Positions 5,189-55,828 of a DNA stretch of 64,000 nucleotides are shown here, one piece after another. The DNA lies in contig CAIYHQ010000111.1 of the NCBI GenBank assembly GCA_903926075.1, positions 62,001 to 126,000 on the forward strand. The letters run 5' to 3'. Position numbers and translations under genes: made by a program. Origin of the DNA: an uncultured Methanomicrobiales archaeon. GTDB taxonomy: Archaea > Halobacteriota > Methanomicrobia > Methanomicrobiales > Methanospirillaceae. The notes under the pieces were generated by a model, which was given only the letters and a program-made list of their open reading frames with translations, was not told the origin of the DNA and searched no databases. Every line of letters begins with the position of its first letter. Within the stretch, counting starts at the first letter, position 1.

Positions 5189-6886
5189 TTAAAATTTTAT
5201 TGTTTTTTCAATTCTACCTGCTTTAAAAACGCTGATTGTCCCGCCACTCTGCGAGACAACAACCCCTATCGCACGCGTAATCTGTGTTATTCCGGCGACA
5301 GATGAATGACGTGTACCAAGACCTTCCGGAATTAAGAGTGTTGATTGATTGGGTACCAGATGACGGCATGATGCAACGGCAAATCCATCACCCTGGACAA
5401 CGAATGCACCATCAAGCTGAGCCAGGTTTTTGATATTCTCCCTATTCAGGGGATTAGTTACCATTCTCTTATCTATCGGATGACCTTCAAGTGCGTTTAA
5501 TCCACATTGACGGGAGTGCTCCATAACAGCCTCTGAATCACCGATAATAAAAGATGTTCCAATGGTCTTTCCTTCTCTTCCTTCCCTTGCTATCTGCTGG
5601 CAGATAAGGAAAACACTTTCAAAAACATTTTCAGAAACGTCTGAATCCTCAACCAGTTTATAGATCCAAGGAATTCTAAGTCTAAGTTCACCCTTATTTT
5701 CGTGGTCAGTTATATCCTGTCCGATAAGAAGAAGTTCAGTTAAACGGCCTTTTTCATTTTTAATGGATTTTGCAGTCCATGCTACATTTGCGTAGTAATT
5801 ATCACCAAGTGGGTGTTCATAAATATGTATAGCAGTCTCATCTGGAAATAAATCAACACCATTAATTAAAACTGAAAAGTCTTTCTCTGAACGTGAATTT
5901 TCAGTAATTAGTGTTCCCACAATCGGTTTACCAAGGATTTCCCTTGGATCCGACTTGAAAAAAATTTCTGCAGAGCGGTTTATAAAAAGAATTGTTCCTT
6001 CACTATCAGTTTTTACAATTAAAGATGAGGAACTATCTACCAGTTCCTGGTTACGGAGTTCCAAAACCCGTAATGCATTTTTAAGTTTCTGTTCTTCACT
6101 CTTGTCTTCAAATATGACTATATCTCCGCGTAAAGGATCTTTAAGGTCTATCCTACGCACCGAAACGGAACAAAAAGTCCTATTACCATTGATATTTGAA
6201 ATAAATGAAGAGAGTTCATAAAATTTTTCATCTGATGCCCTACCATCAAAATAACTCTTTATTGTCAGGTAATCTGATTTATCGCAAAAAATCTCCTCAA
6301 AATTAGTTCCAGGGAGACTGGATACTCCAGTACCGACAAGATCAGAAAAACGACTGTTTCCCCAGGTAATCTTCCCGGATTCAATGGTGCATAGTGCAAG
6401 GGGTGTTACAGAAAGGACATCATTTAAAAAAGTATTCCTAAGTTTCAGGTCATTTTCTGCTTTTTTCCTGACAACTGCCTGCTTAACCATGTGTAAAAGA
6501 GCGGGAGTCCCCTTCCTAACATCATTGCCTTTCCTGAACTCCCCAACATTATTTACATCCATGAAAAGAAGGTCTTCATGAAGATTTTTTATATAAAGAA
6601 TAAATGGAAGATTGATTCCTTGCCTCCTAAGGCTTTGAAGCATCTCTATTCCTGTAAGTTCCGGTAAAAATTCAATACCGCTTATCCTGGGTATGTAAGC
6701 ATATGAAATTACAAGGTCATGTCGTCGTGAAAGTGCTTTATCAAGAGCTTCTTTTGTGCTATGTGCAACATCAAGACGGATTTCACTAACATTAAGAAGT
6801 ATTGAACGGATATTCTCCAAAACAGGAGTGCCATCAACTACAAGAAGCACTGATATCAGAAGAACCACCTTTGAACAATAATGCAA
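5189..6886 (-). CDS. Degenerate receiver - PAS - diadenylate cyclase (DAC) sensor protein
   Basis: Predicted to make cyclic di-AMP from two ATP. The C-terminal 130 residues or so form a DisA_N/DAC domain: GTSFIIGD, catalytic DGA at 492-494, and the RHR-type motif as GTRHSSVAG near 524-532. The first 130 residues look like a receiver (LLVVDGTP, DLVISYAYIPRISGIEFL), but the phospho-acceptor Asp position holds Tyr, so it is probably not phosphorylated. Two PAS domains lie between (about 145-270 and 280-400), the second with ILFINRSAEIFF and LGKPIVGTLI. No membrane segment is convincing, so the sensor is cytoplasmic. The start may be GTG a few codons downstream. The minus-strand gene stands alone between thiD and hxlB. 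Confidence 0.82.
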   Translation of the reverse strand: MHYCSKVVLLISVLLVVDGTPVLENIRSILLNVSEIRLDVAHSTKEALDKALSRRHDLVISYAYIPRISGIEFLPELTGIEMLQSLRRQGINLPFILYIKNLHEDLLFMDVNNVGEFRKGNDVRKGTPALLHMVKQAVVRKKAENDLKLRNTFLNDVLSVTPLALCTIESGKITWGNSRFSDLVGTGVSSLPGTNFEEIFCDKSDYLTIKSYFDGRASDEKFYELSSFISNINGNRTFCSVSVRRIDLKDPLRGDIVIFEDKSEEQKLKNALRVLELRNQELVDSSSSLIVKTDSEGTILFINRSAEIFFKSDPREILGKPIVGTLITENSRSEKDFSVLINGVDLFPDETAIHIYEHPLGDNYYANVAWTAKSIKNEKGRLTELLLIGQDITDHENKGELRLRIPWIYKLVEDSDVSENVFESVFLICQQIAREGREGKTIGTSFIIGDSEAVMEHSRQCGLNALEGHPIDKRMVTNPLNRENIKNLAQLDGAFVVQGDGFAVASCRHLVPNQSTLLIPEGLGTRHSSVAGITQITRAIGVVVSQSGGTISVFKAGRIEKTIKF

Positions 6887-23224: not shown

Positions 23225-24404
23225 TATCCTTATTATTGGTGGTGGACCCGCCGGAGCCATTGCTGCAAAGACTGCAAAAGAAAAAGGTCTCGAGGTAGGA
23301 CTCGTTGAAAAGCGACCTGCAATTGGAGCTCCGGTCAGATGTGCCGAGGGTATCGGTAAAAAACTTCTTGCTGATTTTATAAGACCTGATGAGAGGTGGA
23401 TAGCAGCCGAAATCGAGAGGGCTACAATAATTGCGCCTGACGGTACGACAATGGAACTTGCCCATGAGATGGCAGGTTCAGAGGTAGGTTATATACTTGA
23501 CAGGAAAGTCTTTGACCGCGAACTAATCTGGCAGGCGGCAGACGCGGGTGCTGAGATCTTTGTCAAGACCCGGGCTATAGCTCCTATTCTTGAAGAGGGT
23601 AAGGTTATTGGAGCTAAAATTGAAGCTGGGGGTGACGTAACCGAGGTAAAAGCTGATGTCGTAATTGCTGCTGATGGAGTTGAGTCAAAATTTGGAAAAT
23701 GGTGTGGTATAGACACAACCGTACCTATGCGGGAGATGGAAACATGCGCACAGTACGTCCTTGCAGATATCAATGTCCCGCAGAACGTTACCCAGTTTTA
23801 TCTTGGAAATGAAACTGCGCCAGAAGGTTATGTGTGGGTCTTTCCGAAAGGGAAAAGGGCAGCGAATGTTGGAATAGGAATAAGCGGGAAAAAAAGCGGC
23901 CCGGGTCACAGGGCAATTGATTACCTGAATAGTTTTGTTAGAAAGCATTTCCCTGAGGGTAAACCAATTGAACTTATAGTTGGCGGTGTTTCGGTCTGCA
24001 AGCCACTTGAGTGTACTGTATCAGATAACCTGATGTTTATTGGGGATGCTGCACGGGTGAGTGACCCACTTACAGGAGGAGGAATTTATAATGCTCTTTA
24101 CACCGGAAAACTTGCAGTTGATGTTGCTTCAAAAGCGATTGCAAACGGAGATACAGGAAAAAAAGCACTAATGGAATATGACAGAGGATGGCGCAGCTCA
24201 GCTCTTGGAAAGGCTCTTGAAAGGAATCACAAGATAAAGGAAATTTTTATCACACTTTCGGATGAAAAACTCAATTCAATTGTCCGTTCGATTAGTAAGA
24301 TAAATATGAAGGAGTTTGATACATTCACCCTCATAAAAGAACTAATAAGGGTAAATCCAAAACTTTCCCTGGAACTTGGCGCGCTCTGGGCTTCAATCAG
24401 GTAG
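23208..24404 (+). CDS. Digeranylgeranylglycerophospholipid reductase (geranylgeranyl reductase family)
   Basis: FAD enzyme that saturates the isoprenoid chains of archaeal membrane lipids. The 398-residue protein starts with the FAD-binding motif [20 protein letters not shown], followed by [11 protein letters not shown] (the CAEGI motif of the family), [15 protein letters not shown] and [20 protein letters not shown]. The C-terminal helical part is intact. Translation is coupled to the ferredoxin upstream. The 3' end overlaps the convergent histidine kinase gene by 12 bp. Confidence 0.92.
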
Positions 24405-26984
24405 TAGGAGAGACTCTCCAGTTTCCAGGGTGTTAAACTCATGGTCAGGTTCGAGAATCCGGTATCCACCACGGGGTACAAACATCTCAAACCTGACACC
24501 ATGTTCCGGAATACCTTTTTCCTGGATTGTAATTCTGGTCATTGAAAGAATTTCGCGGGCAAGAAACATACCAAATCCTGTATTTTTCCCAAAACCGCGC
24601 TCAAATATCTTTTCTTTTTCGACATATGATACCCCTGATCCATTGTCTGTGTAGATAACAAGTATCCCGTCCCTTGTTTCTTCAGAAAATATCGTGATCT
24701 CGTCAAGGTCTCCACCGTGTTTCCTTGTATTATCAAAGAGATTGTAAAAAACTTTAGGAAGCAGGGGGTCAGCATAAATCCAGACTGATATCAATTCAGG
24801 GTCAACAAGCGTTGTCTGACTCTCTCCCGCATGTTCCGCGGTCTCTGTAAACAGAGTGAATACGTTCTGCCACTGGGGTGCTTTTACTCCTATCTCCTCA
24901 TAAGCTTTTGTGAAACTTATATGCTGGCGTATTGAATATGTCGCATCCTCAGCCATTTTATAATAACGCTGTAAAAGTTCATCATGGATAAGTTCTTTTG
25001 ATAATTCAAGGCTCCCGAGAACTGTCATTACCTGGTTCAGAACATCATGCCGTGTAATACTTGAGAGTAAATTTAATTTTTTGTTTATCTGCATTATTGC
25101 GTCCTGTGCACGCTTTCTTTCAGTGATGTCACGTGCAATATTAAGAACAAGATGATCCGGACCAATAATAACGGGATAAGTCATCACTTCAACAATTACG
25201 TCTTCTCCATTCTTTCGCTTGATTACCATCTCATCTGGACCGGTTGCAAGGCCCAGGGCATTTTTTGCAAGGAGAATTGCAGCTTTTTTCACATGATTTT
25301 TTGAAAGAAGCTTAAAGTTAAAAAATATTTTACCGAGAAGCTCATCTTTTTTATACAGGGTTAGTGCTTCAGTTGCCCGGTTAAGGTCGATAAATGTCCC
25401 TTTCGTGTCAGTAAGATAATAAGCTTCAGGTGCATATTCAAAAAGAATTTTCAATCGCTCTTCTGAACTTTTAAGCAGAGCTTCTCCTTTTTTTCTATCT
25501 GTGATATCTGTCATTATTACAGTGACCGCCCTTACAAGAGATGATTCATCATCATGTACCGGGCAGAATTTTCTGATGTAAAAAGTCTCCCCCCATTTAA
25601 ATTCATCTTCAATAGATTTTTTTGTCTCGTATATCGTTTTAATAACCCTTTTGAACCATTTCATCTCTTCCGGAGGAAGAAAGACATCGAGGAGACCGGG
25701 TTGATAGTTTTCTCCTATTACACCAAGTAAGGCCATATGCAGGCGGTTCATGAAGAGATAACTACAGTTCTCGTTAACCATATAAATTGGACCATCCACA
25801 GACTCTACAAGAGTACGGTAATTTGCTTCAGACCACCTGAGAGCTATTGTTGCCTGCTTTCTCTCTGTAATGTCACGATATGAATGAATAAACCCTACAA
25901 CCGTATTTCCAAGCAGATGTGGAAATGCATGGAGTTCAAATGTCCTGCCATCAAGAAGTTCAAGTAATTCAAAGAATTCCTGGGCGGGAGAAGAATTTTG
26001 TTCTTTGATTATTTTCGTATAAAGGGACGGATGGAGAAGTGCAGTTAGTATATGGTTTGCAATCATCGAATAGTCATTGGATTTTGTCAGCTGTTCCGGA
26101 ATATTCCAAAAAGTGATGAAATTTTCATTATACCTTATTATCTGGTTTGCCCGGTCAAGAATTAGAAGGCCGTCTGATGTTGATGAGAGGGCACTTGTAA
26201 GGAGTGAAGTTATGCCTTCTGCTTTTTCCATAAGCTGCTTTAATATCGTTATGTCACTTGAGATTACAATAATAGCAAGAGCATCTTTACTTGTCTCATA
26301 AACGACAGGGATGAACTTTCTCTGAAACCAGCGTTCCTTTTTCCTGTACTCCTCTATCTCGGCCTTCCCGGTTTTAAAAACATTATTGACAATACTTGTA
26401 AATTTTTCAGTCTCGTCAGGGAGATGATAATCCTTATAGAGATGACCTTCGATTATAGGATCGGTAATAAAAAGCCTCTTCCGGTGAGGTGAATTGATAA
26501 AAAGATACCTGACATGCCGGTCAACAATATATATCGAATCTTCAGTTGAATCAACCACTGTTTCCATATTACGAAGCGAGAAAGAAAGGTTCATTTCAAT
26601 CTCTCTTTTTATTGTAATCTGGTTGATAAATGACCGAAGCCTTAATGACTGAGGCTCTTTTTGACCTACAGAATCATAATAAAAATCAACTCCTTTGTTA
26701 TATGCTTCAATCTCCTCAGCGAGAGGGCTTTCGCCAAATGTGATGATAAAGGGAGGGAATGATGACTGACCTTTTATCCACCGGATAAATTCAAAAATAT
26801 TAAAATCAGGGAGATCTATCGGACTTATAATGACATCAATCTTTTTTGTGGATATTGCATGAGCTGCAGCCTTAACCGTGTTTACCGATTCAATTTCAAT
26901 GTCCCACCCTGTGTCTTCAAACAACCTTAATATTTCATAATACGCCGTTTTTTTTGCCAGGGTGAGGAGAGTAATTGTTGCCAA
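24393..26984 (-). CDS. Multi-PAS sensor histidine kinase with N-terminal receiver-like domain
   Basis: An 863-residue soluble kinase. Residues 1-115 resemble a receiver fold ([18 protein letters not shown]) in which the phospho-acceptor position is Pro and acidic-pocket residues are missing. Four PAS domains follow (about 130-250, 260-375, 380-500, 505-630), with ERK/DRK-type boundaries (RDITERK, TDITDRK, RDITERK). The kinase core has an H-box of the archaeal type [21 protein letters not shown]-box [15 protein letters not shown] and G-boxes TDNGSGVS and [17 protein letters not shown]. No membrane helix was seen. The output partner is not adjacent. It shares its kinase core style with the REC-kinase at 48.8 kb. 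Confidence 0.88.
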
Positions 26985-32518: not shown

Positions 32519-32875
32519 ATGTTGAAGGAGAAAATAGCAGGGTATATAGATAATATACATGCAATACAGGGCATCGTCACATGTTCCCTTATTTCAAGGG
32601 ACGGGATAATGCTTGGGAAATATGCAACGAATGAATTTAATGAGCCATGGTTTGCCGCAATGTGCGCTACACTCCTTGCTTCAGCAGAGTCTGCATCAAC
32701 AATAATCAAACTCACGAAACCTGACGTTGTAAGTGTTGCAACCTCGGGAAATACACTTGTAATACTTGGAGCAGGCGAAAAGGTGATAATCACTGCAGTT
32801 TTGGAGGAGAGTGAAAAAGATGCAGCCCTAAAGGAGTTGAAAGAACTTGCAAAAGTGATAGGGGAGGCATTCTGA
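32519..32875 (+). CDS. Roadblock/LC7 domain protein
   Basis: A 118-residue single-domain protein of the Roadblock/LC7 (MglB-like) superfamily. It shows the typical N-terminal helix (LKEKIAGYIDNIHAIQGIVT), the strand CSLISRDGIMLG, the long central helix (FAAMCATLLASAESASTII) and NTLVILGAGEKVIITAVL. Such proteins regulate small Ras-like GTPases such as MglA. No GTPase gene lies nearby. Its stop overlaps the ATG of the response regulator by one base, so the two are co-translated. TATA-like sequences at about 32467-32487 precede it. Confidence 0.85.
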   Translation: MLKEKIAGYIDNIHAIQGIVTCSLISRDGIMLGKYATNEFNEPWFAAMCATLLASAESASTIIKLTKPDVVSVATSGNTLVILGAGEKVIITAVLEESEKDAALKELKELAKVIGEAF

Positions 32876-33522
32876 TGTATAGCGTCCTTGTTGTTGATGA
32901 CAGCCCTTTTATCGTTGATGTCTTTGTCACGATGCTTGAACGGGGTGGATACAAGACGCATTCGTCATACGGAGGGAACGAGGCAATTGACATCTTAAAA
33001 ACAGTCACTCCGGATATTATTCTTCTCGATATCATGATGGAGCCTATGGATGGGTGGGAGACACTCGTTCATATCAAAAATAATCCTGCAACAAAGGAAA
33101 TTCCGGTTATGATGCTCACGGCAAAACAACTCACACCTGGTGAAGCTCAGGAATATGGAATTTACATAGAGGACTATATCCTTAAACCAATCACCCACAG
33201 AGAACTCTATGAGGCAATAGAGCATGTCCTAAACAGAAAAACAATGATAAAGACTGATATGGAGAGGGCGACATCAGTCGGAGTGGAATCTGAACTAATA
33301 CATGAGTATGGAAGACTTGTTAAAAGCGTGGATATCAATAGAAGACTTCTACGTATCCTTGAAAATACATATCACATCGCAGATTCGCAGATTGACCTGA
33401 ATGACGAAATCACAATGGCAATCAAGAGTATGGGTATGAACCTTCAGTTTCAGGAGATGCGCATTCAGCAAATCCGTGATGAAATTTCCAAAAAAGAGTC
33501 TATGGGTTCAGTGTCTCAATAA
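32875..33522 (+). CDS. Response regulator with receiver and helical C-terminal region
   Basis: A 215-residue protein. The receiver (1-122) is intact: VVDDSPF acidic pocket, phospho-Asp in DIILLDIMMEPMDGWE, Thr in MMLTAKQ and Lys in YILKPI. The C-terminal 90 residues are helical (RATSVGVESELIHEYGRLVK, then a region ending QEMRIQQIRDE) and match no domain I know; they carry no DNA-binding motif. Co-translated with the Roadblock gene. The 3' end overlaps the convergent small gene by 23 bp. Confidence 0.9.
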   Translation: MYSVLVVDDSPFIVDVFVTMLERGGYKTHSSYGGNEAIDILKTVTPDIILLDIMMEPMDGWETLVHIKNNPATKEIPVMMLTAKQLTPGEAQEYGIYIEDYILKPITHRELYEAIEHVLNRKTMIKTDMERATSVGVESELIHEYGRLVKSVDINRRLLRILENTYHIADSQIDLNDEITMAIKSMGMNLQFQEMRIQQIRDEISKKESMGSVSQ

Positions 33523-48790: not shown

Positions 48791-49984
48791 TCAACGGGTT
48801 TCATCTTCATTATCCAACCTGTGCATATCAGGAGGGACAAGTATCTCAAAACAGGCACCATTTCCAGGTATACCATCCTCCTGAATTGATATCCCGGTTA
48901 TAGAGAGAATTTCTTTGGATAAAAAGAGGCCAAACCCTGTATTTTTTCCAAATCCACGTGAAAAAATATCTTTTTTCTCTTCATCTTTTATGCCAATGCC
49001 ATCATCAGTAATTGCTATTATAAGCCCATCGGGTGAAATGCTTGAATAAAGTTCAATTTTTGAAATTTTTTCACCATAATTTAAAGAGTTGTCAAATAGG
49101 TTATAAAAAACCTTCTCAAGAAGCGGATCAGAATAAACTTCAATATTTTTGATTTTATTGATAAGAGTAACATTTTTAAAATCAAGCTGCTCTTCGACAC
49201 GATTGATAAGCTTGTGGATATTGTGCCATTGTGGTGCTGCTATTCCAAGGTCCTGATAATCTTTTGTAAAATTTATCTGTGACTGCATACTCATGGCAAT
49301 CTTCATGATTTTATGAGCGATTTCCTGTATTTTTGAGATATCAGTCGTATTTTCCAAAAGAACAAGATAACTTTCAAGCGCAATCAGTCGGTTCTTGAGA
49401 TCGTGTCTTGTTATGTCAGAGAGCAGGCGTAGTTTCCTGTTTGCAAGTTCAAGTTCTGAATTGTTTTTAATGGCTATTTCGTATGTTGAAAGAAGGATAT
49501 TAAGAATCTGCAGCCGGCTTGCAGTTATTGTATGAACACTATGGTCAAATATTACATCAAGTTCAGTTGGTTTTCCGTCCGGGTCGCTTTCGCTTGCTGA
49601 TTTGAGAGTACTTTCGATTCTTGAATTGATAAATTTAAGATTATAAGGTTTTATTATGAAATTATCTGCTCCAGATTCAAGTCCTTTTATCACATCTTCA
49701 GAGTCATAAAGATTTGTCACAAGGATAACCGGTATTTTTGCTGTACGTTCATCTTTTTTAATCAGTTTACAAAGTTCATATCCATCAATCTCAGGCATGA
49801 TAACATCAGTCAGGATAAGGGCAGGCAGTTCCTCCTTTAAAATTTCAATTGCTTCAAATCCATTTGCTGCAACTATCACACTATAACCGTCTTTTTCCAG
49901 AATGTATCTAAGATATTCTGCCTGGGTCCGATTATCCTCTACTATAAGGACCCGGATTGATCGCATTTCAAAATTTTTTCCCAT
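48791..49984 (-). CDS. Receiver-histidine kinase hybrid (REC-HisKA-HATPase)
   Basis: A 397-residue soluble protein. The N-terminal receiver (about 8-125) is intact: VLIVEDNRTQAEYL, phospho-Asp in LILTDVIMPEIDGYEL, ILVTNLYD and FIIKPYN. The kinase has H-box LSDITRHDLKNRLIALESYL, N-box [15 protein letters not shown] and G-boxes TDDGIGIKDEEK and [17 protein letters not shown]. The receiver-first order suggests that the upstream CheA-like kinase could phosphorylate it and so control a second phosphorelay. Last gene of the chemosensory cluster. Confidence 0.9.
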   Translation of the reverse strand: MGKNFEMRSIRVLIVEDNRTQAEYLRYILEKDGYSVIVAANGFEAIEILKEELPALILTDVIMPEIDGYELCKLIKKDERTAKIPVILVTNLYDSEDVIKGLESGADNFIIKPYNLKFINSRIESTLKSASESDPDGKPTELDVIFDHSVHTITASRLQILNILLSTYEIAIKNNSELELANRKLRLLSDITRHDLKNRLIALESYLVLLENTTDISKIQEIAHKIMKIAMSMQSQINFTKDYQDLGIAAPQWHNIHKLINRVEEQLDFKNVTLINKIKNIEVYSDPLLEKVFYNLFDNSLNYGEKISKIELYSSISPDGLIIAITDDGIGIKDEEKKDIFSRGFGKNTGFGLFLSKEILSITGISIQEDGIPGNGACFEILVPPDMHRLDNEDETR

Positions 49985-49996
49985 TAAATTCTTCCT

Positions 49997-50009
49997 ATTC
50001 TGTTATTCT
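49997..50009 (+). repeat. 13-bp repeat in the REC-kinase leader (copy 1)
   Basis: ATTCTGTTATTCT on the plus strand (AGAATAACAGAAT in the sense of the genes), 13-25 bp upstream of the REC-kinase start. An identical copy lies in the MCP leader at 54757-54769. Confidence 0.5.
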
Positions 50010-50042
50010 GTAAGATTCAGTTAGGAATACAAAATATTTCAC

Positions 50043-52337
50043 TTAGTGAGATACTTTTTGAAGATTCATTATTGTGTCCAGTAAATTATTTTTATCGTAA
50101 CTACTCTTGACTAAATACGCATCAGCTCCGACAGAGATCCCATGCTCTTTATCTTCCTTGGAATCAAGTGAAGTGACAAGTATTACAGGTGTATTAAAAA
50201 GACGTTCATCGGCACGAATTTTTTCAGTGAGGGTAAAACCGTCCATTCTAGGCATATCAACATCCGAAACAACAAGATCAAATTCACGATTTCTTAACTT
50301 TTCATACCCTTCTATCCCGTCTTCTGCAGTTTCCACATAGTAGCCTGCATTTTCAAGTGTCCGGTGAAGAAGTGCACGAGAGGTAACAGAGTCTTCAACA
50401 ACGAGAATCCTTCCATGGTTTTTATGAGTGAATACCTTCCTGATTTCCGAATTACGGACTTTCAACGAATCCTGAATTATTTCAAGAGGGTCAAGCACCA
50501 GAGCAATCTTCCCATCACCAAGAATAACTGCTCCGGAAATTTTCTTTACACGTTTTAGTTGTGTTCCAAGAGACCTGACAACAATCTCCTGAACCCGGAA
50601 AACATTGTCAACAATACATGCTACCTGACCTGCCCCATATGAAATGATTAGTACCGATATCTGTTCTTCCGCATTATAAGTATACTCATAATCTGGCAAT
50701 TTCAGGATTTCTTCAAGACTTATAATCCTGATTATCTCCCCTTCAATGTTTATATAATGCCTTGTCCCTTTTAGAAAAATCGAATCTGGCTTTATTCTTA
50801 TGACCTGCCTGACATGCTGCAATGGAAATACATAAAGGTAATCTCGTGAATTTACAATAACACCTTTGAGTGTTGCAAGGCGTACTGGGACTATAAGGAC
50901 TATAGATGTGCCGACCCCTTGGTTAGATGAAATCGTTATTTCACCATTTAACCGTGTGACTGTCTCCTCAACAATAGCAAGACCTAATCCCCTTCCTGAA
51001 AGGTCTGCTATTTCCGAATTCGTTGAGAAACCAGACCTGAAAATAAGCCAGATTACTTCCTCATCAGTTATTCTCTCCTCTTCCTTTTCAGTAATGATGC
51101 CTCTTTTTAAAGCTGTTTTTCGGATTCTGTTTATCTCTATACCTGAACCATCATCTTTCACCTCGATTCTGACCTTACTTCCTGATTGTGGAATGATACT
51201 AATCCGAATAAGCCCTTTAGATTTTTTTCCATGAGCCTCACGTATATCAGGATATTCAATACCATGATCCATGCAGTTACTGATTAAATGCATGAGAGGA
51301 GCTTTAAGATTTTCAAGAATACGTCTGTCAATCTCAATTTCATCACCCTCTATTACGATATCAGCCTGTTTCCCCAAACTTCGGGAATATTCCCTGACAA
51401 AAGCAGGAGATGAAGAAAAGATACTTGAAATAGGCGATAAAACCGCATCGTGAATAAGTTCTGATATCCCCGTAGTGCTAAGTTCAAGAGCAGACCTATC
51501 AACATCTGTTGCACGAAAATGAGCGTTCAGATCATGTTGAAGGTTAATGATAAAATCGCGGTCATATTTCAGATATGCAATCAATCTCTCTATTGGTACA
51601 ACAAGCTCAGGGGGCAGAAAAGTCTTCTCTTTTCCGAGTAATATTTCTCTGATTAGATGCACGTCATTATTTATGAGGCTGTGATTCCAGCGCCAGATTG
51701 AAAAACGGCTTATCATCTCCTCAAGTTCATGCATCCTGTGAGTAATGAAAAGACGCGTGGTAAGAAGATCATCCGCACCCATTATCAGACGATCGAGCTT
51801 ATTTGCTGAAATTTTTATAGTATTGCTTTTATTACCTTCCCGGTTAGGAAGATTAATTCCAGAACCACCGGCAACAGGATTTTCAGTTTGTTTTTTTTGC
51901 ACTCTAACATTTTTATTAACCTTCGATTGTCTTTTATATTTTTTATCTTTTAAAAGACTTTCAAGGTCGTCGATGATTTTGTCAAATCCATATTCAGTCT
52001 TATTTTCTGAAAAAAGAAGTTCTCTTATCCCCCGGATAGCACTATGGAATAAGTCGTAAACAAGATCATCAGGGGTAAAATCCCCATTTTTCATTTGTGA
52101 AAAAATGTTTTCGAGGTTTTTGCAAATTGATTCAATTTCCCTGAAATTGACAGCCCTTGATGCTCCCTTCAGGCTGTGGGTTTTCCGGTAAATTTGCTCG
52201 ATGATTTTTATATCTCCTGACCCACCACTCCTCTCGAGTTCTATAAGTCCCTGTGAGATATCTGTAAGTAGATCATCAGCATCCTCGCGGAATGTGGCTA
52301 AAAGCCACTCTTGAAACTCTTGATCGTTTCCGTTCAT
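50043..52337 (-). CDS. CheA-type histidine kinase with C-terminal receiver
   Basis: A 764-residue hybrid kinase. Domains in order: Hpt (about 5-105, phospho-His in IYRKTHSLKGASRAV), a charged linker without a recognisable CheY-binding P2 domain, dimerisation helices with an insertion (about 172-320), HATPase (about 325-475: LMHLISNCMDHGIEYP, VKDDGSGI, ADLSGRGLGLAIVEE), CheW-like (about 480-615: LYVFPLQHVRQVI, GAVILGDGKIALVLD), and receiver (about 640-760: RILVVEDSVTSRALL, VVSDVDMPRMDGFT, AYLVKSS). The layout is like FrzE and other hybrid CheA proteins. It starts 10 bp behind the MCP gene. Confidence 0.92.
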   Translation of the reverse strand: MNGNDQEFQEWLLATFREDADDLLTDISQGLIELERSGGSGDIKIIEQIYRKTHSLKGASRAVNFREIESICKNLENIFSQMKNGDFTPDDLVYDLFHSAIRGIRELLFSENKTEYGFDKIIDDLESLLKDKKYKRQSKVNKNVRVQKKQTENPVAGGSGINLPNREGNKSNTIKISANKLDRLIMGADDLLTTRLFITHRMHELEEMISRFSIWRWNHSLINNDVHLIREILLGKEKTFLPPELVVPIERLIAYLKYDRDFIINLQHDLNAHFRATDVDRSALELSTTGISELIHDAVLSPISSIFSSSPAFVREYSRSLGKQADIVIEGDEIEIDRRILENLKAPLMHLISNCMDHGIEYPDIREAHGKKSKGLIRISIIPQSGSKVRIEVKDDGSGIEINRIRKTALKRGIITEKEEERITDEEVIWLIFRSGFSTNSEIADLSGRGLGLAIVEETVTRLNGEITISSNQGVGTSIVLIVPVRLATLKGVIVNSRDYLYVFPLQHVRQVIRIKPDSIFLKGTRHYINIEGEIIRIISLEEILKLPDYEYTYNAEEQISVLIISYGAGQVACIVDNVFRVQEIVVRSLGTQLKRVKKISGAVILGDGKIALVLDPLEIIQDSLKVRNSEIRKVFTHKNHGRILVVEDSVTSRALLHRTLENAGYYVETAEDGIEGYEKLRNREFDLVVSDVDMPRMDGFTLTEKIRADERLFNTPVILVTSLDSKEDKEHGISVGADAYLVKSSYDKNNLLDTIMNLQKVSH

Positions 52338-52347
52338 GAAATATGGT

Positions 52348-54741
52348 TCATACGTGATACTGGACTGTGATCTTTTTCAGACGGCCACCAAGTTCGTGGA
52401 GATCCTCAGCTGTCTTTTCTGCCTTTCTCGTTATTTCAAGGTTTCTTTGAGCAGCATCACGGATTTTTTCCATTGCAAGAGAGATCTGGTCCATTCCTGC
52501 AACCTGCTCCTGGATTGAGGAGGCTATTTCAATTGCTTCACGGGAAGAATCAGCACTTGAACGTGTGAGAACTTCAATTGCTTCGCGTGCATCTGTTGTG
52601 AGTCTGACCGCATCTGCTACTGTTTTAGTCCCCCCTTCAGTAGACACAACTGTTGAAGATACTCCCCTTTGGATATCTGTAAGAATAGTTCTAATATTTG
52701 CCGTGGCCTGCTTTGACTGTTGGGCAAGGTTGTGAATTTCATGGGCAACTACGACAAATCCCTTTCCAAACTCTCCAGCTTTTGCAGCTTCAATTGAAGC
52801 ATTTACAGCAAGCAGATTTGATTGTTCAGATATATCAGTTACTGTTGCAATAATCTCACCGATTGCCTGGCTCTGTTCAGAGAGTTTGATGACATTCATA
52901 CCTATCATATCCATCTGTCTCTGAATGTGGTTCATACCATCAAGGATCTCCTGAACTGATTTCTGACCTTCCCCTGAGACCTGAATCGCCTTCATAGCTT
53001 TTTCTGATACTTCTTTTGTCTTTTTATTAACTATTTCTGTCTTCTTTCGGACATCTTCAACCGTGTCAGAAGTTTCATTTACAGTTGTTGCTGTCTGCAA
53101 ACTTGCGGATGAGAGCTGTGTGGTAACTGTTAATATCTCGCTTGATGCAGCAGAAAGAACAGATACACCTTCATAAAGCTCCTCAGTTATAAGCTTCATC
53201 AGTCTTGATAGTTCAATTCCAATAGTATTAAGGGCGTCACGGTATGCTATGAATTCTCCGGCGACCGGAATTTTTTCATCAAATCTAGCTGTGAAATCAC
53301 CTGTTGCATAATAACCTGCCAGGCGCATAGCTTCGTTTACTGGTTCAGTAATTGTCTCAAGGGTTTTATTGAAACCCGCAATGATCATCCTGTAGCCACC
53401 CTTGAACGCTTTTTCATTCCCCCGGACTGACAGATCCCCTGCACGGGCAGCATTGGTGAGTTTTATCGTTTCTTTGTGTAAATGATCGAGGGACTCTATC
53501 ATCATCTGCAAGGCAGGCCGAATTTCATCCCTTTCATCAGCTGGACTGGAAAATTCCTGGATGTATTCGCCGTTTGCAATCTTTTTAATGTTGCCTACGA
53601 GATTTATCTGTAGATCATCGGCAAATTCATCCATCGTAGCCGCCATGGTACCAATCTCATCCTCTCTCTTAATATTAAGACGTGCAGAAAGGTGACCATT
53701 TCGAAGTTCTTTTATCATTAGAACTACCTGCTGAAGCGGGTCTGATATTGAACGTCCAAAGAGAAATGCAATTATTGCACCCAGTAACATTGAAGTGATT
53801 ACAAGTGCAAGAATTGTATTTCGTATTGTGTCAATAGGACCAGTAAAGTCGGATAGTTCTGCACGGGATACTATGTACCAGTCAAGTGGTTCATAGTAAG
53901 TATACGCATCAAAAACGTTTGTTCCATTAACATTATGACGAATTGCTCCGTCCTTGTTCTTATACATCTCCTGGACAAATGACTCGTTATTCCAGTTCTG
54001 CCCGGTTTGAGAAGGATGAACAAGAACATACCCGGTCCCGTTCAGAACATACATATAACCATTCTTACCTACGACTGTTTCCCTTATGCTCTTCTTTACA
54101 ACATCAAGCGTCTGGCCTTCTTCAGTACCTACAAACAAGACGCCTATTATACTTCCATTACTGGACTTGATAGGTTCATATGCTGTGACATAGTTCTTTC
54201 CGAATAAATCTCTCATCCCATAATATGTCACGCCTTGTTTTACTGCCACTTGGTAGACATTGTCCGTAAGTGGAGTCCCCACTGCTCTCTGTCCATCAGT
54301 CCCAATAACATTCGTCGAGATCCTGAGAGCATAACTATTATTATAGACTTGAAAAACAGTTGCCGCACCCCCAACAAGTGACTGGACTTTATCGACAACC
54401 TCAAAGTTATCATTAACTGTATATGCTTTACCAGTACTATCAACAAGTGTGAGTTGGCCTTTAATTATCTCAGGAGTCCCTTTTGAATAGAAATTCTGCT
54501 TTAATACGTTGAGATCGCTGTTCACCTTATTTCTTGTAAGTTTGTAGACATCGTTTGTCCAGCCTTTCATATCATGGACCTGAGTTTCAAGCAAAGTCTG
54601 TATCTGTTCATTTATCACACTGCTCGAACTTGAATAAGCAATAATCCCGAGTAATAAAGTAGGGATTATTGCAAGTAACAGACAAATAACAAGAATTTTC
54701 GTCCCTACTTTCATATTGGAGAAAAATTGAAGCATTAACAA
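52348..54741 (-). CDS. Methyl-accepting chemotaxis protein with extracellular Cache domain
   Basis: A 797-residue transmembrane receptor. TM1 ([20 protein letters not shown]) is followed by an extracellular Cache-type sensor (about 40-295, with [12 protein letters not shown] and [20 protein letters not shown]), TM2 ([20 protein letters not shown]), HAMP (about 328-380), an elongated region with HAMP-like repeats (about 385-510) and a signalling domain whose tip is [20 protein letters not shown]. The tip is intact, but no CheR-docking pentapeptide ends the protein. It is clustered with CheW, CheA-REC and REC-kinase. Confidence 0.92.
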
Positions 54742-54756
54742 ACCCTCATATAATCA

Positions 54757-54769
54757 ATTCTGTTATTCT
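54757..54769 (+). repeat. 13-bp repeat in the MCP leader (copy 2)
   Basis: The same ATTCTGTTATTCT as at 49997-50009, here 16-28 bp upstream of the MCP start, in the same orientation relative to the gene. Confidence 0.5.
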
Positions 54770-54802
54770 TTATGAAAAAGATATGGCAAAATATTTTTTC
54801 CT

Positions 54803-55828
54803 TTATGGCACTGATTCATCAATAATCATCTTTGGGTTAGACAGAAGTGATCCGGCATCAAGGACTATTACATCTCTTTCATAAGTTCCAAGCATGTAAT
54901 CGTGGTATGTAGAAATAGGTTCTGATGATTTATTTAAAACAGTTTCATATTGAATGTTTTCTATTCCAACTATATCATCAATAAGAAGACCAAACGTAAT
55001 GGCCCCGTTGGAGATAACAATCACCTGATTTAAATCAGTCAGTCCCTTTTTAGGAATTAAAAGGAGATTGTTTAAATCAATTAAAGATATAATCTCACCC
55101 CTTACTGCACAGATACCTACAATATAATCAGGGGTTCCAGGAACAGGTGTGATCTCCCTCGTTATGATAACTTCACGGATATATTTCATCTCAATTGCAT
55201 ACTCTTTGTATGCAAGTTGAAATTTTAGAACTTCAATAAAGATTGATTCGTCCTTCTCTTTTCGTGGATGCGCGAGTTCTCTTGCACGTTCTTCCAGAAT
55301 TGTACGGGTCCTTTGAGGGTCAAGGAGATCTTCCTCGGTGCTTGCATCTTTAAAAAGATTTAGGGACCCATTCATATTACGATAGAATAATTCCGAAATA
55401 CTAGTCTGCGGTTCATTATTCCGTGATTCTATTAACAATTCCAGGTCTGTGATAATAAATACACCATTTTCAGATAGATCTAAACCATAATTTTCAAATT
55501 TAGTAACTGGAAGAGTATCCTCAGTTTTTTGGGGTGCATCCTTTTCTTCAAAAAAATAGGTCGAATCTACCCAGAGTGCAATCTTTTTTTCCTCTATCTG
55601 AGTGATTATCAGGTTATCTGTTATCCTGGGTGAGCGATATGGGAGACCAAAAAGTGTACGGACAGAATAAACCGGGATATCTTCTCCATAAAGGTTAATG
55701 CTTTCAGTTTCCAGGTGATTGATTTTCGAGGGAGGGAGTAACTTTACCATTCGAATCATAAACAGAGTTTCGTCCAGTGATAATGAGCCCCGGATTTCAC
55801 CTACAGAAAAATCAAGCATATTTTTCAT
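54803..55828 (-). CDS. Tandem CheW-domain adaptor protein
   Basis: A 341-residue protein made of two CheW-like domains. The first (about 1-155) is divergent (DFSVGEIRGSLSLDETLFMI, LFGLPYRSPRITDNLIITQI). The second (about 198-335) is canonical (EVLKFQLAYKEYAIEMKYIR, PGTPDYIVGICAVRGEIISL, FGLLIDDIVGIENI). Such double adaptors couple receptors to CheA. First gene of the chemosensory cluster; a TATA-like CATTTATATT at about 55874 (minus) would be its promoter, back to back with that of the PEGA gene. Confidence 0.85.
   Translation of the reverse strand: MKNMLDFSVGEIRGSLSLDETLFMIRMVKLLPPSKINHLETESINLYGEDIPVYSVRTLFGLPYRSPRITDNLIITQIEEKKIALWVDSTYFFEEKDAPQKTEDTLPVTKFENYGLDLSENGVFIITDLELLIESRNNEPQTSISELFYRNMNGSLNLFKDASTEEDLLDPQRTRTILEERARELAHPRKEKDESIFIEVLKFQLAYKEYAIEMKYIREVIITREITPVPGTPDYIVGICAVRGEIISLIDLNNLLLIPKKGLTDLNQVIVISNGAITFGLLIDDIVGIENIQYETVLNKSSEPISTYHDYMLGTYERDVIVLDAGSLLSNPKMIIDESVP

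Follow-up and report, generated by a model that had tools for sequence, protein, structure and literature searches.

The window analysed here is a stretch of 64,000 nucleotides from an uncultured Methanomicrobiales archaeon (assembly GCA_903926075.1, contig CAIYHQ010000111.1, positions 62,001 to 126,000), and the subject of this study is a chemosensory cluster at window positions 48791-55828, in which four genes lie on the minus strand with intergenic gaps of 61, 10 and 58 nt. They encode a tandem CheW, a membrane methyl-accepting chemotaxis protein (MCP), a CheA with its own receiver and a receiver-histidine kinase (REC-HK); their coordinates and domains are collected in Table 1. All four reading frames are open and the genes are intact, as claimed in an original prediction that was made from the sequence alone. 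Neither CheR nor CheB gave a match anywhere in the window, none of its five receiver matches is a stand-alone CheY, and CheD gave no match with the single seed used (a contig 74 protein named CheD by eye). To this extent the further claim that adaptation genes and CheY are missing from the 64 kb stood; CheC was not searched for.

Table 1. Features of the window (positions within the 64,000-nucleotide stretch)
Feature	Position	Strand	Remarks
CheW-CheW fusion, 341 aa	54803..55828	-	Pfam CheW, two stretches
N-terminal CheW domain of the fusion	about 55427-55810	-	weak match, fast evolving
C-terminal CheW domain of the fusion	about 54839-55234	-	
Membrane MCP, 797 aa	52348..54741	-	Pfam Cache_3-Cache_2, HAMP, HAMP_2, MCPsignal
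MCP residues 562-563 (E,D)	53053..53058	-	position of the EE/QE pair of complete-cluster MCPs
MCP residues 744-745 (Q,E)	52507..52512	-	within a ten-residue stretch that fits the strict methylation consensus
CheA with own receiver, 764 aa	50043..52337	-	Hpt (His54), HATPase (Asn354), CheW-like, REC (Asp692)
REC-HK, 397 aa	48791..49984	-	REC (Asp60), short linker, two-helix DHp (His194), HATPase (Asn299)
REC-MetOD2 response regulator, 215 aa	32875..33522	+	small regulator, 15 kb off, outside the operon

The catalytic residues are conserved in both kinases. When the window was aligned with 28 orthologous loci, the Hpt histidine (His54), N-box asparagine (Asn354) and receiver aspartate (Asp692) of CheA were invariant (29/29). 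The same 29 loci gave 31 REC-HK rows, two REC-HKs being present at some loci, and here the receiver Asp60 was found in 31/31, the H-box His194 in 30/31 and the N-box Asn299 in 28/31. Pfam did not call a HisKA domain in REC-HK, and the DHp assignment comes from a structural model together with the H-box. No PAS or GAF domain was matched by Pfam in this protein either, so that the receiver is its sole visible input. The model, built from a four-row alignment (mean predicted local distance difference test score, pLDDT, 73.5; predicted template modelling score 0.45), shows in order the receiver, a short strand pair, a long helix carrying His194, a second helix and the ATPase domain. Its top full-length Foldseek matches were to LvrB of Leptospira, with a poor whole-chain superposition (template modelling score about 0.3), and a VIA-align structure comparison gave receiver matches only among the 50 matches listed, with no LvrB there. 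Sequence searches of the PDB returned receiver matches for REC-HK and generic CheA and receiver matches for CheA. A pattern for the linker that follows the receiver was found in 19/48 REC-HK rows of the order and in 6/38 receiver genes of the set L095-L123 (L numbers denote loci and G numbers genomes). A loosened pattern matched 47/48, having been set post hoc without a chance control; the idea of a shared linker was dropped, and nothing here rests on it.

The N-terminal CheW domain is the more divergent part of the tandem protein. Its CheW match (E 7.6e-7) covers model positions 24-88 and is far weaker than that of the C-terminal domain, and mean identity to 27 orthologs is 31% for the N-terminal and 52% for the C-terminal domain. 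An AlphaFold model of the CheW-CheW protein was discarded (pLDDT 32). The MCP was called from a TTG start, and the real start may be a few codons further in. A scan for sigma-70 promoters and terminators remained at chance level, a scan of this kind not being apt for archaea.

The same genome (3.14 Mb in 134 contigs) holds other chemosensory genes; in all it has 12 CheW-domain, 4 CheR, 5 CheB and 20 MCP-domain matches, some of the last being two pieces of one frame. Contig 50 carries a complete paralogous cluster (L009) that encodes CheW (153 residues), CheR-TPR (492), CheW (203), MCP (915), CheA-REC (763), CheB (357) and REC-HK (410), and whose CheA is 39% identical to that of the window. The window cluster is thus this gene set minus CheR and minus CheB, and its two CheWs are joined in one protein. 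A canonical-looking archaellum che cluster (L013) lies on contig 74; CheA is present in it and the CheB and CheF families were identified by Pfam, with CheY, CheD and archaellum genes named by eye only. It is there, and not in the window cluster, that CheY (by eye) and CheF stand beside CheA as in archaellum chemotaxis.

The original prediction had proposed that the four-gene order be compared across Methanomicrobiales, and the order proved to be conserved. Of the order's 232 genomes, 76 contain a match to the window CheA at E up to 1e-60; a search at class level drew on the same 232 and yielded nothing further. From these matches we assembled a reduced-type set of 66 loci, one each in 66 genomes including that of the window (CheA E up to 7.7e-169), all 66 rows being stronger than the complete-type paralog of the window's own genome (2.4e-153). 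Six genomes with a complete-type row only were also read, and G138, G198, G205 and G215 were left out together with a second fragment from G126. CheR or CheB was found in the stretch read at none of the 66 reduced-type loci, some of which run into a contig end on one side or the other. In a control with these seeds, CheB was detected in all 13 of the order's complete clusters whose gene order was read and CheR in 11 of them, the remaining two being truncated where the contig ends. Upstream of CheA, 11 of the 66 loci offer less than 3.6 kb; a fused CheW is present in 54 of the 55 with at least 3.6 kb, the exception (L204) having two separate frames. REC-HK follows CheA in 60 of the 63 loci with at least 1.5 kb downstream. 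The persistence of this order across five families of Methanomicrobiales speaks against a chance arrangement. No small stand-alone receiver lies within 8 kb of CheA at the loci read, the lone listing (L222) being CheA's own receiver in a split frame; a CheY in orthologous operons, which the original prediction had named as evidence that would contradict it, was not found at these loci. In two related genomes a gene that by eye resembles an alpha/beta-hydrolase is inserted between CheA and REC-HK (L065:7819-8679 and L084:10768-11721).

Phylogenetic analysis places the reduced clusters within the complete ones. The CheA tree has 65 rows, of which 30 are reduced (29 loci of the 66-locus set together with L095, a Methanoculleus locus identical with L216), and these 30 form one clade with a Shimodaira-Hasegawa-like approximate likelihood ratio test support of 100. 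With the addition of the complete-type L081 they form a clade (support 99) inside the complete clusters of the order (98), and the bacterial and ANME-2 complete clusters fall outside the order's clade. A single loss would account for this pattern. A tree of 50 CheW domains is split with a support of 100: the fusions' N-terminal domains join the first CheW of the complete type, and their C-terminal domains join the second. Because the domains divide in this way, the tandem CheW is best interpreted as the product of a fusion between the first and the second CheW, which in complete clusters lie on either side of CheR. A CheW-CheW fusion was also observed in a deltaproteobacterial cluster that keeps both CheR and CheB (L121:6308-7462), so more than one origin of such a fusion is possible.

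In bacteria, complete clusters commonly share the gene order of those in Methanomicrobiales, with a REC protein after CheB, and complete clusters occur in ANME-2 as well. Among those tested, this protein is a REC-kinase in L106, L110, L102 and L121, a REC-GAF-PAS-GGDEF-EAL protein in L098 and a REC-PAS protein in the ANME-2 locus L097. Within the order, a REC protein follows CheB in 13/13 complete clusters, and a kinase seed matched it or its neighbour in 10/13. The cluster of Azospirillum ramasamyi (L224), annotated as CheW, CheR, CheW, MCP, CheA-REC, CheB, regulator and hybrid kinase, agrees with the complete methanogen cluster in gene order, apart from an additional regulator gene before the hybrid kinase.

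We then compared the window cluster with known systems. The original prediction had likened it to the Frz type. FrzE is a CheA with a C-terminal receiver, and Frz serves an alternative function; to our knowledge it has no REC-HK output. FrzCD of Myxococcus is a cytoplasmic receptor accompanied by the methyltransferase FrzF, whereas the window MCP has a Cache sensor region and the window has no CheR. The Frz-type classification was rejected on gene set, and it is the Che3 and Wsp-H types that match in gene set and order instead. In the Che3 system of Rhodospirillum centenum, as given in PMC3868531, CheA3 phosphorylates the receiver (REC1) of the kinase CheS3, which is thereby turned off, and the receiver of CheA3 itself is a phosphate sink. 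In both clusters CheA ends in a receiver, the second kinase begins with one, and there are two CheWs. They differ in that Che3 keeps CheR3, CheB3 and CheY3 while the window operon has no CheR, CheB or CheY, and in that CheS3 has two RECs, a PAS domain and an HWE kinase while the window REC-HK is minimal and the window CheWs are fused (PMC3868531). CheR and CheB in the cluster, missing from the window, are present in the paralogous L009; a CheY-type target of the second kinase was not found in the window cluster.

A second relative is the Burkholderia Wsp H-system, which in the passages of PMC8552884 consists of WspA-F and WspH, a receiver-histidine kinase that replaces the diguanylate cyclase WspR and whose predicted phosphate donor is WspE. 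Here too there are two CheWs and a CheA-type kinase with a receiver-histidine kinase as predicted target, a likeness of gene set in which no named WspE was compared. The Wsp H-system has WspC (CheR) and WspF (CheB), with wspH upstream of the operon (PMC8552884); from the core of MCP, two CheWs, CheR, CheA and CheB the window cluster lacks CheR and CheB. The Wsp-H-type receiver-histidine kinase itself is present with its residues intact, and its role as output would follow by comparison. In plasmid searches no Wsp annotation appeared among the best 25 of 305 and the best 25 of 389 records. The architecture of REC-HK is that of Leptospira LvrB, which the passages of PMC13269768 present as the prototype of Rec-controlled histidine kinases: both are REC-DHp-CA proteins with the receiver as sole visible input, the DHp of the window protein being assigned from model and H-box. 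Phosphorylation of its receiver turns LvrB on, and LvrB is driven by another histidine kinase, LvrA, and not by CheA (PMC13269768). The window REC-HK also belongs to the same protein class as the archaeal REC-HisK proteins, described in the passages of PMC5847659 as possible cascade intermediates of which none had been characterised experimentally at that date, and linked there to no CheA cluster. The window cluster is not described in the passages of PMC3868531, PMC13269768, PMC5847659 and PMC8552884, nor in those of PMC9680633, PMC2829493, PMC2666748, PMC4704411 and PMC8396549, and we found no paper in the open-access literature on an archaeal relay from CheA to a REC-kinase.

The explanation that we consider best, and probable, is a reduced Che3/Wsp-H-like array whose CheA signals to REC-HK. 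The Cache MCP, the CheW-CheW adaptor and CheA would form a chemosensory array that sets CheA activity, and CheA would pass phosphate to Asp60 in the receiver of the neighbouring REC-HK, with its own receiver serving as a phosphate sink or brake. Phosphorylation of Asp60 would alter the activity of the attached DHp-CA kinase, which would then act on a response regulator encoded elsewhere. We take REC-HK to be the output, as the original prediction did, because its receiver and kinase residues are both conserved and the step from a CheA to a REC-kinase has been shown in R. centenum. By this analogy CheA likely phosphorylates the receiver of REC-HK, be the effect activating or inhibiting. The original prediction had gone further and suggested a two-stage relay in which phosphate is passed on to the kinase. 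That idea is sound and its first step already has a bacterial precedent, but strict pass-through is not what the precedent displays, as phosphorylation by CheA3 turns CheS3 off. Indeed, REC-HK might be an active kinase for its own response regulator that phosphorylated CheA switches off, exactly as described for CheA3 and CheS3 in the passages of PMC3868531. We give this opposite sign somewhat less than an even chance, since LvrB, the top full-length Foldseek match, is activated by phosphorylation of its receiver (PMC13269768), and CheS3 is a REC-REC-PAS-HWE protein, unlike the single-REC protein here.

In evolutionary terms, the window cluster is best seen as derived from the arrangement CheW, CheR-TPR, CheW, MCP, CheA-REC, CheB, REC-HK by loss of CheR from between the two CheWs, fusion of these CheWs and loss of CheB. 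Such an array may report a sustained ligand level with weak dedicated methylation adaptation, which is the least supported part of the explanation. The adaptation enzymes are not encoded with this receptor, and we do not claim that adaptation itself was lost. Methylation sites of the receptors were compared on this point, in rows that share ancestry, so that the counts below are not independent events. At the position of MCP residues 562-563, EE or QE is present in 13/13 complete-cluster receptors and in 0/29 reduced ones, where E is followed by D, S, N, G, A, T or L. At residues 744-745, two of E/Q occur in 10/13 complete vs 8/29 reduced receptors.

Several observations weigh against the reduced-array explanation or parts of it. 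The strict methylation consensus, applied in its commonly given form, occurs in 8/29 reduced-type receptors, the window included, vs 2/13 complete-type ones; a relaxed consensus is still found in 24/29 and 13/13, respectively, and a single E/Q is kept in 26/29 and 23/29 reduced receptors at two further MCP positions. CheR was detected in 67/68 related genomes searched, and the 4 CheR and 5 CheB matches of the window's genome lie elsewhere in it; CheB had no match in 4/66 genomes (G145, G164, G172 and G185), whose assemblies are incomplete. Archaellin was found in 64/65 cluster-bearing genomes searched (G206 left out), G145 alone being without a match, so that a link to motility is possible. 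REC-HK is not beside CheA in 3/63 loci (L063, L209 and L214), and in 3/13 complete clusters the REC protein after CheB gave no kinase seed match. The CheA tree came from a quick search without bootstrap and was rooted on a long-branched outgroup. Finally, the genome has 134 receiver matches, too many for the final target to be named.

The methylation-site evidence is therefore mixed, and a firm claim of no adaptation at all was rejected, CheR and CheB being encoded elsewhere. Since clusters bearing CheB and CheR exist elsewhere in the genome, adaptation in trans by these enzymes is possible. The original prediction had named a complete che operon supplying adaptation as evidence against it, and this is half borne out by the canonical-looking cluster and the paralogous cluster with CheR and CheB. 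The same facts could be accommodated if the cluster were an accessory arm of archaellum chemotaxis, in which the MCP and CheA join mixed arrays, the receptor is methylated in trans and CheA also feeds the canonical CheY, with REC-HK as a side branch. The CheB and CheF families of the canonical-looking cluster, the near-universal archaellin and CheR, and retention of the strict consensus by 8 of the 29 reduced-type MCPs, that of the window among them, are all in line with this. We nevertheless regard it as unlikely, as the cluster has an MCP, CheWs and CheA of its own, which are inherited together with REC-HK, and CheA has no small stand-alone receiver beside it at the loci read. G145 moreover has the CheWW-MCP-CheA core with no archaellin or CheB match, in an assembly that is 93% complete and in which the adjacent REC-HK is also absent. 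In the explanation that we prefer, the output of the reduced array is probably something other than the archaellum switch.

In many relatives the operon is larger. A membrane PAS kinase-like protein (HK2) follows in 44 of the 61 loci with at least 3.5 kb downstream, and a GNAT protein is present in 35 of these 61; HK2 was called without GNAT in 9 loci, and the two are fused in 7/66. The H-box histidine of HK2 is lost in 12 of 22 aligned proteins (10 Thr, 1 Ile, 1 Leu); the sample comes from the first 28 loci, where the H-box could be aligned in 22 of 23 HK2 proteins. Fusions of this GNAT family to HK2-like kinases occur elsewhere (L180, L182 and L183), and a PAS-kinase-GNAT query matches 127 places in the window's genome, PAS and kinase pieces counted together. 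Searched against the PDB, the GNAT profile gave weak matches only, to ElaA and one hypothetical protein. In the fuller operons, protein acetylation may thus be an output or serve as feedback. A more elaborate pathway, running from CheA through REC-HK and HK2 to GNAT without methylation enzymes of its own, with acetylation as output or as a substitute for methylation and only the relay kept in the window lineage, seems to us rather improbable.

HK2 and GNAT are absent at the window cluster and at its nearest tree relatives (L060, L061 and L083). A GNAT on contig 109 was considered as a relocated operon copy and rejected, being closer to a second paralog of the relatives (59-73%, best rows, other genomes) than to operon copies (37-46%). 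The absence of HK2 and GNAT, together with the fast-evolving N-terminal CheW, might suggest that the cluster is decaying and has little function in the window lineage. This is hardly credible given that the four frames are open, the catalytic residues are kept and conservation is clade-wide. In other methanogens the GNAT family of the operon is also fused to two domains that by eye are of universal-stress type (L181:1319-2629, L185:1071-2312 and L186:1182-2501), and the genome of the window encodes one such GNAT immediately 5' of a gene that by eye resembles a hydrogenase/antiporter membrane subunit (L179:417-2876).

Elsewhere in the window, the REC-MetOD2 regulator, which is one of the five receiver matches and which the original prediction did not mention, is a candidate downstream partner of REC-HK, and only a lead. 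Directly 5' of it is a Roadblock/LC7-like protein (below the Pfam cut-off), the pair occupying 32519-33522 on the plus strand. An 863-aa PAS kinase at 24393-26984 (minus strand) has a weak N-terminal receiver match and a kinase core of the same type as the cluster REC-HK. At 5189-6886 (minus strand) a 565-aa protein combines a partial receiver-like region (below the Pfam cut-off), a PAS domain and a DisA-type diadenylate cyclase domain (E 2.2e-18), and is a candidate sensor-fused cyclic di-AMP synthase.

What is new here is that methanogens have, throughout a clade, a reduced form of the cluster whose operon contains neither CheR nor CheB and whose fused CheW can be traced to its source; in many loci a kinase-GNAT extension is added. 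The signalling proposed for it would be a pared-down counterpart of a relay found in bacteria that form cysts or biofilms. It also offers a natural case in which the core of a chemosensory system has been maintained across an archaeal order since its operon lost the adaptation enzymes. As a complete cluster of the ancestral type is still present in the same genome, the two can be compared directly, which allows one to ask what purpose a dedicated CheR/CheB pair serves and what a CheA can drive besides CheY.

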